A stretch of DNA of 64,000 nt from Streptomyces clavuligerus. Its GTDB lineage: Bacteria > Actinomycetota > Actinomycetes > Streptomycetales > Streptomycetaceae. Numbering within the stretch: the stretch's first letter is position 1; each line of letters starts with the position of its first letter. Below are positions 48,170-55,803 of the stretch, in pieces. Under the pieces are notes generated by a model. The model saw nothing but the letters and a program-made list of their open reading frames with translations. It had not been told where the DNA came from and searched no databases. Made by a program: the position numbers and the translations under genes. The stretch spans positions 1,116,001-1,180,000 of the forward strand of contig NZ_CP027859.1 of NCBI RefSeq assembly GCF_005519465.1, read 5' to 3'.

Positions 48170-48800
48170 TCACGGCGAGTACCCGCCGGTGGTCGTCCGC
48201 CGCCTCCGGCAGACCCAGCTTGGCCAGGAGGCTGCGGACGTGTTTCTCCACGGTGCCCTCGGTGATCCGCAGTCTGCGGGCGATCCCGGCGTTGGAACGG
48301 CCCTCGGCCATCAGTGCCAGCACCTCCCGCTCCCGTACGCTCAGCGCCTCCAGCGGGTCCTGACGGCGCCGCACCGACACCAGTTCCTGCACTAACGCCG
48401 GGTCGACCACCGAGCCGCCCCGGGCCACCCGCTCCAGGGTGTCGAGGAACTCCGCCACGTCGGCCACCCGGCTCTTCAGCAGGTATCCGATGCCCTGCCC
48501 GCTGGCCAGCAGTTCCATCGCGTGCTCCACCTCGGCGTGGGCCGAGAGCACCAGGATGCCGATCCCGGGCAGCTCCTGCCGGATCACCCGGGCCGCCGCC
48601 AGCCCCTCCGTGGTGTGCGTCGGCGGCATCCGGATGTCCACGATCACCAGGTCGGGCCGGTGCCGCCGCACCAGGGGCAGCAGCCCCGTCGCGTCCCCGG
48701 CCTGTCCCACCACCCTATGTCCGCACCGTTCAAGCAGGCTGGCCAACCCCTCGCGCAGCAGAACGTCGTCCTCGGCCAGTACTACCCTCACTCCTGCCAT
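48147..48800 (-). CDS. res2: NarL/FixJ-family response regulator
   Basis: A 217-residue protein from ATG 48800. It has an N-terminal receiver (VVLAEDDVLLREGLAS, phospho-acceptor Asp55 in VIVDIRMPP, Ser in LVLSAHAE, Lys in YLLKSRV) and a C-terminal LuxR-type HTH (LSVREREVLALMAEGRSNAG, then ITEGTVEKHV). It is convergent with res1 and forms the DNA-binding partner of the Snk system. The frame is open far upstream, but no family similarity exists there and the SDR gene occupies the opposite strand. Confidence 0.92.
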   Translation of the reverse strand: MAGVRVVLAEDDVLLREGLASLLERCGHRVVGQAGDATGLLPLVRRHRPDLVIVDIRMPPTHTTEGLAAARVIRQELPGIGILVLSAHAEVEHAMELLASGQGIGYLLKSRVADVAEFLDTLERVARGGSVVDPALVQELVSVRRRQDPLEALSVREREVLALMAEGRSNAGIARRLRITEGTVEKHVRSLLAKLGLPEAADDHRRVLAVITFLEAQ

Positions 48801-49028
48801 GACGACATTATCGACTACGCAACGGACTTGTTCGGCTACGGTTTGCGCGTCTCCTTGTCCTGGACACACATCTCCGTACGAAGACCTCATCCCGGTGCGG
48901 CGTCCGCCCCGTGGCTGCGTGATGACCATCTGTTCGAACCGTGATCGGTAGCATGCGGACTTGATCACTTCGGTCAACTCGCGTGTCACAGCGCGTACTT
49001 GGCGCACCATCGACGACAGGGGTGCAGT

Positions 49029-49775
49029 ATGGAACGTTTCCGCGGCAGGACCGTCCTCATCACCGGCGGCACCAGCGGCATCGGTCTGGCGACCGGGCAC
49101 CGCCTGGTCGCCGAGGGTGCTCAGGTCATCGTCACGGGCCGTACCGGTGAACGCGTCGACGCCGCCGTCGGGGAACTCGGCCCCCAGGCCGGAGGTGTTG
49201 TCGCGGACACCGGTGACCTCGGTGCCGTCGAGGCGCTGATGGAGACCGTCCGTGAGCGGCACGGCCGTCTGGACAGCCTCTTCGTGAACGCGGGCACGGG
49301 CACGATCGTCCCGTTCGAGGACATCACGGAGGTGGATTTCGACCATGCCGTGAACGTCAACCTCAAGGGCGTCTTCTTCACCGTCCAAAGAGCCCTGCCG
49401 CTGCTGACGAACGGCGGCTCGATCGTCATCAACGCGTCCTGGACGATCCACCGGGGCAACAGCGCCCTGACGCTCTACTCGGCGACCAAGGCCGCCGCGC
49501 ACAATCTGGCCCGTACCCTGGCGGCGTCCCTGGCCCCCCGGGGCATCCGGGTGAACTCCGTCAGCCCCGGGTACATCGACACCCCGATGTACCCGGAGGC
49601 CGCTCTGACCCCGGCGGAGGCCGAGACCCTCACCGGCCGTGTCGTCGCGGGCCGCTTCGGCCGTCCGGAGGAGATCGCGGCGGCCGTCGCCTTCCTCGCC
49701 TCGTCCGACGCGTCCTACGTCAACGGCCAGGACCTGGTGGTCGACGGCGGTCTGATCGGCGCGATCCCCGGCTGA
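49029..49775 (+). CDS. Short-chain dehydrogenase/reductase
   Basis: A 248-residue protein from ATG 49029. Classical SDR motifs are all present: the cofactor loop TGGTSGIG (about 13-20), NAG at 91-93 and VINAS with the catalytic Ser. YSATKAAA has Tyr and Lys in the YxxxK arrangement, and the family phrase RVNSVSPGYIDTP follows. A basic residue after the first strand (VTGRTGER) suggests NADP(H). The substrate is unknown. It lies just beyond res2 and is divergent from it; whether it belongs to clavam metabolism cannot be told from sequence. Confidence 0.92.
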   Translation: MERFRGRTVLITGGTSGIGLATGHRLVAEGAQVIVTGRTGERVDAAVGELGPQAGGVVADTGDLGAVEALMETVRERHGRLDSLFVNAGTGTIVPFEDITEVDFDHAVNVNLKGVFFTVQRALPLLTNGGSIVINASWTIHRGNSALTLYSATKAAAHNLARTLAASLAPRGIRVNSVSPGYIDTPMYPEAALTPAEAETLTGRVVAGRFGRPEEIAAAVAFLASSDASYVNGQDLVVDGGLIGAIPG

Positions 49776-49823
49776 CCCGGCCCCGGGCGAACGGCCGTGT
49801 GCCGGCTCCGGCTCCGCGTGCGG

Positions 49824-49829
49824 TAGAGT
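49824..49829 (+). promoter_or_regulatory. Possible -10 element for the tRNA-like gene
   Basis: TAGAGT matches the Streptomyces -10 pattern TAGRRT. It lies 47 bases before the first base of the predicted tRNA. No good -35 hexamer is found 16-19 bases upstream, so the promoter assignment is tentative. Confidence 0.35.
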
Positions 49830-49870
49830 GATCATGTGCTCGCGACCGGGACAGCCGGTACGGGAGGCGC

Positions 49871-49943
49871 GCGTTGGTGGTCCAAGGAAAGACACCCCAC
49901 TTCCCGTGGGGGGATGCAGGTGCAAGGCCTGCCCAGCGCTCCA
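49871..49943 (+). tRNA. Divergent tRNA-Gly(UCC)-like gene with encoded CCA
   Basis: The 73 bases fold into a cloverleaf by hand. The acceptor stem GCGTTGG (49871-49877) pairs with CCAGCGC (49933-49939) with one G-U, then discriminator T and CCA. The D stem is three base pairs, GTC/GAC, with loop CAAGGAAA. The anticodon stem CCCCA/TGGGG has the seven-base loop CTTCCCG, T33 and anticodon TCC (glycine). The variable loop has four bases. The T stem GCAGG/CCTGC has loop TGCAAGG, where TTCRANN is canonical. Discriminator U fits bacterial tRNA-Gly. The altered T loop and short D stem suggest reduced elongation-factor binding. A perfect terminator follows. Confidence 0.75.
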
Positions 49944-49946
49944 GAC

Positions 49947-49985
49947 GAAGGCCCTGATCTCCGGACGACGGAGATCAGGGCCTTC
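49947..49985. terminator. Terminator directly after the tRNA-like gene
   Basis: GAAGGCCCTGATCTCC (49947-49962) pairs perfectly with 49970-49985 around a seven-base loop. It starts three bases after the encoded CCA and lies before the convergent Rpf-like gene, so it can end both transcripts. Its position supports an independent tRNA transcription unit. Confidence 0.88.
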
Positions 49986-50042
49986 CTCGTGCCGCTCACA
50001 CCCGCGGGGCCGGTCCGCCGGAGCGACCGGAGCCGCTGGCTG

Positions 50043-54079
<4,037 letters not shown>

Positions 54080-54425: not shown

Positions 54426-55028
54426 TCAGGACTGGAGGGGCGAGCCATTCAGCTCCCAGGTGACGGGGCCCTGGGTGTCGCCTTCGAGGTCGTAGACGAC
54501 CGTCGCGTCGGTGGACCACCACAGGATGGTGTCCACCGGGTTGTCCACCGGGATGGCGTGGCAGTTCAGGGTGGTGGCGTGACCCCAGTGCGCGTTGAGG
54601 TTGGCGGTGAAGTCGCAGGTCCTGGAGGACCGCACGGTGTCCGCGCCGGTCTGGCCGGGACGGCTCTCCAGCCGGGTGGTGACCTTGAAGGAGGTGAAGC
54701 GCTTGCTCCGGTCGATGACCTGGTCCACCAGGATCATCCAGTTGATCCCGGTCCGGCCGGAGACCCAGGCCGGTCCCGTCGCCGGGGCGTGCAGCTGCCC
54801 GCAGTTCTCGATGTACACGTGCGTGTCGGGCTTGTCCCCGGGCAGGTCCAGATCGCGGCCGTTGGCGCCACTCGACGTGCTGCACTTCTCCGGGCCCGCC
54901 GCGGCCACGGCGGGCGTACCGGTGGTGGTCGCGGAGGCCGGGGCGGCGAACGCGGTCCCACTGGTCAGAAGGGCCAGCGTGGCGGCGGCCGTGGAGAGCT
55001 TGAGGGACGTGGTGCGGGAACGGCGCAT
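54426..55028 (-). CDS. Small secreted protein of unknown function, copy 1
   Basis: A 200-residue protein from ATG 55028 with AGGAGAT upstream. The signal peptide (MRRSRTTSLKLSTAAATLAL...) is cleaved near APASA. The mature part has cysteines in EKCSTSS, ENCGQL, RTCDFT and LNCHAI, suggesting two disulfides, and a beta-rich end with ILWWSTDATVVYDLEGDTQG. I do not recognise the family. It is followed upstream by a close paralogue with an identical signal peptide and an identical leader before the start codon, so the pair is a tandem duplication. Confidence 0.75.
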   Translation of the reverse strand: MRRSRTTSLKLSTAAATLALLTSGTAFAAPASATTTGTPAVAAAGPEKCSTSSGANGRDLDLPGDKPDTHVYIENCGQLHAPATGPAWVSGRTGINWMILVDQVIDRSKRFTSFKVTTRLESRPGQTGADTVRSSRTCDFTANLNAHWGHATTLNCHAIPVDNPVDTILWWSTDATVVYDLEGDTQGPVTWELNGSPLQS

Positions 55029-55206: not shown

Positions 55207-55803
55207 TCAGACCTGCTGCGGCGAGCCTTCCAGCTCCCAGGTGATGGGCCCCTGGGTGTCGCCTTCGAGGTCGTAGACGATCGTCGCGTCGGTGGACCAC
55301 CAGAGGATGGTGTCCACCGGGTTGTCCACCGGCAGGGCGTAGCAGTACAGGTTCATGCCGCTGAAGTCGGCGTTGAGGTTGGCGGTGAAGTCGCAGGTCC
55401 TGGAGGACTGCACGGTGTCCGTGCCGGTCTGGCTGGGGCGGCTCTCCAGCCGGGTGGTGACCTTGAAGGAGGTGAAGCGCTTGCTCCGGTCGGTGATCGG
55501 CTCCTCCATCGTGTCCCAGTCGATGGCAGTCCGGCCCGAGACCCAGGCCGGGGCCTGCGGCTGGTGCAACTGCACGCAGTTCTTGCCGGTTATCCATGTG
55601 GTGGGTCTGGTCCCGGGCAGGTCCACCTGCCGGCTGTTGACGCCGTCCGACTTGCACTGCTCCGGCCATGCCCTGGCAGGGGCGGGCGTAGCGGTGGCGG
55701 TGGTCGCGGAGGCCGGGGCCGCGAATGCGATTCCACTGGTCAGAAGGGCCAGCGTGGCGGCGGCCGTGGAGAGCTTGAGGGACGTGGTGCGGGAACGGCG
55801 CAT
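55207..55803 (-). CDS. Small secreted protein of unknown function, copy 2
   Basis: A 198-residue protein from ATG 55803. Signal peptide and leader match copy 1 almost base for base. The mature N-terminus is diverged, while the central RSKRFTSFKVTTRLESRP and the end NPVDTILWWSTDAT are nearly identical. Cysteines are conserved (EQCKSD, KNCVQL, RTCDFT, LYCYAL). Selection has apparently changed the N-terminal third and one cysteine-flanking loop most. A possible promoter lies upstream (see 55901). Confidence 0.75.
   Translation of the reverse strand: MRRSRTTSLKLSTAAATLALLTSGIAFAAPASATTATATPAPARAWPEQCKSDGVNSRQVDLPGTRPTTWITGKNCVQLHQPQAPAWVSGRTAIDWDTMEEPITDRSKRFTSFKVTTRLESRPSQTGTDTVQSSRTCDFTANLNADFSGMNLYCYALPVDNPVDTILWWSTDATIVYDLEGDTQGPITWELEGSPQQV

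Follow-up and report, generated by a model that had tools for sequence, protein, structure and literature searches.

The window analysed here is a stretch of 64,000 nucleotides from C2, the megaplasmid contig of Streptomyces clavuligerus, and the sole tRNA called in it by ARAGORN is a tRNA-Gly(tcc) at 49871-49943 on the + strand. The gene and its flanks comprise the following features.

49824..49829, + strand: -10-like box TAGAGT, 47 nt 5' of tRNA position 1 (predicted, by reading the sequence)
49836..49870, + strand: 5' leader hairpin, which ends at the tRNA 5' end (fold of 49835-49870, z -2.74)
49871..49943, + strand: tRNA-Gly(UCC)-like cloverleaf with an encoded CCA (ARAGORN, fold and our own covariance model)
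49900..49906, + strand: anticodon-position loop CTTCCCG, in which C35 and C36 are kept while C37 and C32-G38 are unusual
49921..49927, + strand: T loop TGCAAGG, with G55 in place of T55 (sequence and family comparison)
49947-49963 / 49969-49985, + strand: intrinsic terminator with a perfect 17-bp stem and a 5-nt loop (fold z -7.67 against shuffles)

The minimum-energy fold of 49871-49943 is a cloverleaf with a D stem of 3 bp, and fold and ARAGORN agree on the four paired stems, the short D stem and the T loop that an earlier sequence-only reading of this DNA had described. The perfect terminator, which starts three bases past the CCA, was likewise confirmed. The -10-like box and the leader hairpin had been overlooked in that reading. 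By itself, the cloverleaf is only slightly more stable than shuffled sequence (z -1.41, with 10 of 200 shuffles equally stable), and the case for the gene is carried by conservation and covariation. The Rfam tRNA model RF00005 gave no match at E<=10 in 48500-51500. The same reading had taken the anticodon loop as canonical, which does not hold, because C32 pairs with G38 in the fold and position 37 is C, whereas all 24 other ARAGORN-called tRNAs of this genome, taken from sampled chromosomal stretches, carry A or G at position 37. The T arm is GTTCRA in all 24 of these comparison tRNAs, which include one odd gene, L043:86-162 (near 5580087 of the chromosome, C1). This gene is a weak tRNA match (40 bits), is called tRNA-Val(gac) by ARAGORN and has an unusual anticodon arm, with no other tRNA within the 251 bases fetched.

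The 221 bases round the gene are found at 100% identity in 15 plasmid records of S. clavuligerus, including pSCL4. The genome possesses four copies of the gene, all on the + strand of C2, with the further ones at C2:1301464, 1308634 and 1340637, and the description of the gene as free-standing therefore fails in the sense of a solitary gene. The first 72 nt are identical across the four copies, their leaders and terminators mostly differ, and the other three end in CCG, not CCA. Beyond these copies, the best match within the genome is 19 nt. RF00005 yielded 68 matches at E<=1 over the whole genome, all on C1 and none on C2. Canonical tRNA-Gly genes with GCC, UCC and CCC anticodons are present on C1, so decoding should not need the tRNA-like gene. 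Elsewhere in the window, two adjacent secreted-protein genes (54426-55028 and 55207-55803, - strand) have nearly identical N-termini (MRRSRTTSLKLSTAAATLALLTSG...) and are likely a tandem duplication.

Distribution and conservation of the family

The gene at 49871-49943 is real and is a member of a widespread Streptomyces tRNA-like family. A gapped pattern with <=2 mismatches found the family in 145 of 295 Streptomyces genomes, at 1 to 9 copies per positive genome, while the reversed-pattern control gave 0 among the matches listed. In a blastn survey of the same 295 genomes, in which at most two candidates were scored per genome, 165 matched at E<=0.001. A covariance model built from 20 bodies of all three subfamilies (see below) detected the family in 51 of 101 Streptomyces genomes, and a model from 19 bodies did so in 110 of the 197 genomes searched across the order; every positive genome belongs to a single one of the six genera covered. 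Named GTDB contigs contained at least 120 matching stretches, and among the 80 listed, 79 belong to Streptomyces and one to Actinacidiphila. As well, 67 of 72,556 plasmid records match (Streptomyces 65, Streptantibioticus 2), which fits the earlier suggestion of a mobile-replicon tRNA, but many family copies are chromosomal, so the suggestion covers only part of the family. A phage origin was rejected, because no match to the exact pattern of the gene was present in viral_contigs, and the 106 matches in phage records at E<=10 were weak, none spanning 80% of the query, with the 20 listed ones touching the terminator region only.

The commonest form of the family is missed by RF00005, which gave no match in loci L001, L007 and L019 (type I) or L205 (type II), with positive controls in L045 at 70.1 and 51.1 bits; a type III copy, L214, passes the cut-off at 35.7 bits. 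In the open-licence literature searched (titles and abstract openings), no description of the family was found, and the term 'tRNA-like' is absent from the main text of a small-RNA catalogue of S. clavuligerus (PMC11678152).

We collected 249 distinct copies with 63 bodies, 219 of them with 71-nt bodies (type I) and 30 with rebuilt anticodon loops (types II and III). To be collected, a copy had to start with GCG, to carry GTGCAAG in its T arm and to have a D loop with AAGG-like letters; moreover, the patterns used for the GTDB contigs and the 295 genomes favoured CTTCC, so all of these features are selected in part. No such requirement applied to U73, to the 3' end, to pair 51-63 or, in types II and III, to the CC.

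Family copies are typically self-contained, each with a -10 box, a hairpin leader, a cloverleaf of ~71 nt and a terminator, while the gene neighbourhoods change. A TA...T box lies 40-60 nt 5' of the body in 245 of 248 leaders, compared with a mean of 31 and a maximum of 43 in 50 mononucleotide shuffles, and the commonest box-to-body spacing is 47, as in the 49871 gene (70 of 193 leaders). The 242 distinct leaders fold with a median z of -1.95 against mononucleotide shuffles, and 65% of them are under -1.5. In line with a terminator hairpin, the fold energy of the 40-nt 3' flank is no higher than -15 kcal/mol for 245 of 248 copies. The encoded CCA end pointed out earlier stands for 49871-49943 and is no trait of the family, for only 75 of 248 copies encode it. 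In 213 locus-copies (not de-duplicated), the tRNA-like body was free of genes predicted by our own simple gene caller. Recurrent ORFs overlap the body among relatives, and a conserved small peptide was considered and rejected; nearly all positions are fixed regardless of codon position and the stems covary, so conservation of the RNA explains the overlapping ORFs.

Among 48 distinct 71-nt bodies, 99.6% of the pair cells are paired in the named cloverleaf, and sliding the stem partners cuts pairing to 36-50%. The covariation score is 0.136, compared with 0.103 for shuffled bodies, and none of 500 shuffles reaches 0.136. Both-side changes occur in three of 20 pairs, a number that 99 of 500 shuffles also reach. 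The covariation is thus real but modest, because the tRNA-like body is so conserved. A covariance score had been proposed as a check on the gene; RF00005 does not match, whereas the family's own covariation beats 500 shuffles, and for this reason the RF00005 miss was not counted against the gene. The tertiary pairs A15-U48, U8-A14 and G19-C56 are present in 48/48 bodies, positions 26/44 are G-A in 34, A-G in 8 and A-A in 6, and 18/55 is G-G in all 48. As judged from these bases, the tertiary positions appear consistent with those of a tRNA.

Other odd tRNA-Gly-like genes were also observed. One, L045:141-212 (C1:3111640-3111711 of S. clavuligerus), is tRNA-Gly(UCC)-like and lies directly 5' of a tRNA-Gly(GCC). 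Similar to the family, it has a CTTCC loop, U73, a T loop starting TGCAA and a short odd D loop (by eye); unlike the family, it scores 51.1 bits with RF00005, has another acceptor stem, A37 and a D loop without GG, and stands in tandem with a canonical tRNA-Gly. Genes of this type also occur in L221, L222, L341 and L342, and ARAGORN is silent on the S. clavuligerus copy. A further tRNA-Gly-like type, with a GCGCCGG acceptor and loop CTTCCGG, was found in three other genomes (L220:1501-1572, L338 and L343), preceded by a common upstream string, GTGTGTGTATCATCCCTCTCCGC; the D loop lacks GG in L220 and L338.

Anticodon arm, glycine determinants and elbow

The anticodon-position loop is CTTCCTG or CTTCCCG in 218 of 249 copies and CTTCCGG in 1, while in the other 30 it is rebuilt to 4 or 6 nt, giving two subfamilies. 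In type II, AGCC, AACC or TGCC closes a 6-bp anticodon stem, and the loop of type III is the 6-nt CTCCAA; the acceptor, D arm and T arm are much alike among types I, II and III. A search with the type I model in 19 genomes, chosen for weak matches, returned 33 matches, which comprise 29 70-nt bodies of the two new kinds, a type I relative (L204) and other tRNA-Gly-like genes (L220-L222). Hence, 29 of the 30 rebuilt-loop copies were found via a model built solely from members with 7-nt loops. Type I retains U33 and the UCC triplet, and a pyrimidine occupies position 37 in 218 of its 219 copies, so the combination expected for canonical decoding, a 7-nt loop with U33 and a purine at 37, is almost entirely lacking in the family.

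According to previous studies, the glycine identity of bacterial tRNAs lies in G1-C72, C2-G71, G3-C70, U73, C35 and C36, to which C50-G64, G10 and U16 are added as determinants of the Thermus glycyl-tRNA synthetase (GlyRS) (PMC9976931, PMC3990555). G1C2G3/C70G71C72/U73 and the loop CC are present in 249/249 copies, the 30 rebuilt loops included, although the GCG start was required by the filter, and G10 is also found in 249/249. As read from sequence, the core determinant set and G10 match the published bacterial glycine identity. C50-G64 occurs in 217 of 219 type I copies and U50-G64 in 15 of the 30 type II and III copies, while for U16 the family's short D loop offers no obvious equivalent.

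The T loop is TGCAAGG in 247 of 249 copies, GTGCAAG being required by the filter, and TGC at 54-56, found in 249/249 under the same requirement, also occurs in L204 and L344, a divergent pair of type I relatives that the filter left out. Canonical T54-T55-C56 is thus absent from all of these. These two relatives have shortened D loops without GG, and their T loops are TGCAAGC and TGCAATC. In 248 of 249 copies, the D loop is CAAGGAAA or TAAGGAAA, which keeps G18-G19, AAGG having been favoured by the filter. The T stem has G49-C65 in 249/249 and A51-U63 in 244 of 249 copies, compared with G49-U65 and G51-C63, read from sequence, in the canonical tRNA-Gly(UCC) and (CCC) of S. clavuligerus.

According to a review, strong EF-Tu pairs give way to A49-U65 and A51-U63 in the non-proteinogenic tRNA-Gly of staphylococci (PMC4052509). 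The Streptomyces family resembles the tRNA-Gly of the S. aureus pentaglycine bridge in its bacterial glycine determinants, in the weak EF-Tu pair A51-U63 and in having ordinary isoacceptors alongside (PMC4052509). Unlike these, it keeps G18-G19, which are UU or CU in staphylococci, has G55 as its elbow change and G-C instead of A-U at 49-65, and includes subfamilies that rebuild the anticodon arm; its genes are dispersed single-gene units, missing in about half of the genomes, with no Fem link found in 101 genomes.

Neighbours and genomic spread

The 406 proteins encoded next to family copies fall into 244 clusters, and 120 of 240 cluster representatives match 136 Pfam families. No neighbouring enzyme or transferase is shared among the 120 of 240 representatives scanned, the commonest Pfam family being MFS transporters with 5 members. 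Recurrent neighbours are tsaD (14 loci) and an Amdase-family gene (20), which look like orthologous sites rather than partners. The clavam genes, OrfA and the murein hydrolase genes, to which the gene at 49871 had been tied, are not common to family copies among the 120 representatives scanned, and a clavam or murein-hydrolase partner was rejected since copies elsewhere have unrelated neighbours.

FemAB proteins (PF02388) are present in 101/101 Streptomyces genomes. PF02388 matches, often two matched stretches per gene, average 4.04 in genomes with the RNA and 3.28 in those without (p 0.05), but this association is gone after removal of genome size (p 0.83, 101 genomes). FemX was rejected as the consumer in view of this universal presence without a size-independent association across the 101 genomes. 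On the megaplasmid of S. clavuligerus, no biosynthetic cluster is evident by eye round a FemAB-like gene. Because about half of the genomes do not carry the family, Streptomyces cannot in general depend on it for the glycine bridge of its peptidoglycan. Presence of the RNA tracks genome size (9.18 vs 7.94 Mb, p 8.6e-7, 101 genomes), with 8 of 33 genomes positive below 8 Mb and 15 of 16 at 10 Mb or more.

In seven chosen multi-copy genomes, chromosomal positions were listed for 30 copies, and 24 of these fall in the outer 10% of the chromosome, compared with 1 of 6 in six single-copy genomes. Copies are mirrored near both chromosome ends in genomes G091 (C1:37152/10229429; 49198/10217383) and G068 (C1:31053/12093687), which would fit a location in terminal inverted repeats. 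By inspection of 84 rows (82 distinct copies, 21 genomes), the similarity between paralogues of one genome often starts near the -10 box, runs through the terminator and largely ends there, as for the four copies of G371 and two of S. clavuligerus. In the type II copies of G374 (L210/L227) and of G333 (L223/L231/L284/L285), the similarity extends 5' of the -10 box, which most of the inspected type I paralogues do not show and which might reflect a conserved -35 or operator. The within-genome pattern is compatible with movement of a cassette and also with gene conversion. A search for orthologous sites revealed no close filled/empty pair. In the other genomes, the matches listed were confined to the Amdase end of the query, with the RNA elsewhere or absent.

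A possible role outside translation

The best reading of these sequences, which we hold with about as much belief as doubt, is a glycylated tRNA that is kept out of decoding and serves as a reserved glycine donor. The simplest model for the loss of decoding features in a gene that keeps its GlyRS determinants would be a tRNA that is glycylated yet not passed on to translation. Each gene would form its own transcription unit, consisting of a -10 box, a short hairpin leader, the cloverleaf and a terminator, and RNase P, 3' processing and CCA addition would give a tRNA of ~73 nt. The housekeeping GlyRS is predicted to charge this RNA with glycine, because the recognition bases are present. The resulting glycyl-tRNA would be poorly used by EF-Tu and the ribosome, given A51-U63, G55 and an anticodon arm unsuited to ordinary decoding, which for the anticodon arm of two subfamilies is apparently impossible. 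The reserved pool of Gly-tRNA might then supply non-ribosomal glycine transfer by enzymes encoded elsewhere. The glycyl donor outside translation proposed earlier for the 49871 gene is thus strengthened, through the kept determinants, the lost decoding features and A51-U63, while its local tie to clavam or murein genes is not supported. More tentatively, the family might be a genus-wide one of glycyl-tRNA freed from decoding, with fixed synthetase determinants and an anticodon arm redesigned as far as a 4-nt loop, an accessory multi-copy donor of glycine to tRNA-dependent chemistry, spreading as a cassette via chromosome arms and plasmids.

In Bacillus cereus, a pseudo-tRNA (tRNA-Other), which is an aberrant free-standing tRNA proposed to act outside decoding, is similar to the family by description only. 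Within Streptomyces, BD-12 Orf11 is reportedly a natural-product enzyme that uses glycyl-tRNA, and work by Daniels in 2022 is said to describe glycyl-tRNA as a nitrogen donor. Such enzymes are possible consumers of Gly-tRNA in the same genus, and none was found beside family copies among the neighbours scanned.

A regulatory tRNA mimic, that is, a pseudo-tRNA not charged or not usefully charged, which occupies GlyRS or another tRNA-binding protein in trans, is a doubtful alternative. Free-standing multi-copy units with their own -10 box and terminator, the rebuilt anticodon arms and the poor fit of the commonest form to RF00005 would suit this role, but the GlyRS determinants, including U73 and the loop CC, survive the redesign of the loop, which is beyond the needs of mere shape mimicry. 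An auxiliary tRNA-Gly, decoding GGA or GGG to supplement the translation of accessory genes, could be read from the U33 and UCC triplet of type I, the ARAGORN call and the 35.7 bits of type III; it is unlikely, in view of pyrimidine 37 in 218/219 seven-nt loops, the C32-G38 pairing, the subfamilies with 4-nt or 6-nt loops, G55 in place of T55 and the three canonical isoacceptors already in the S. clavuligerus genome. It is quite improbable that the family is simply a tRNA-derived element, selfish or dispersing, that propagates as a cassette of ~150 bp. The likeness of paralogues from about the -10 box through the terminator, seen by inspection, points that way, yet gene conversion limited to the homologous unit gives the same pattern, some pairs (G374, G333) are alike upstream too, and neither a target duplication nor an empty site emerged from the orthologous-site search, in which close filled/empty pairs did not turn up.

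For TacT, a toxin that acetylates Gly-tRNA, the determinants are given as U73 and G71 (PMC9976931), and they are invariant in the collected copies, so the family might be a decoy that shields real tRNA-Gly from a toxin targeting tRNA or glycyl-tRNA; this is very improbable, because no toxin family recurs among the neighbours scanned (120 of 240 representatives). The chance that the gene is a decaying copy of a tRNA-Gly or the remnant of an attachment site, which the earlier reading had named as an outcome against it, is negligible. The location of the copy on a plasmid, the D stem of three pairs and the z of -1.41 for the fold alone would agree with decay, but the four copies with 72 identical nt, the near-invariant bodies within differing flanks, the covariation with its compensatory changes and a best match of 19 nt in the genome outside the four copies contradict it.

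If the reading as a reserved glycine donor is true, about half of the sampled Streptomyces species would hold glycine tRNAs possibly reserved for non-ribosomal chemistry, and the separation of aminoacyl-tRNA pools between translation and other uses would be directly testable in them. Moreover, the family would offer a handle for unknown tRNA-dependent glycyl transferases in antibiotic producers, as well as natural test cases for how much of the anticodon arm GlyRS needs.
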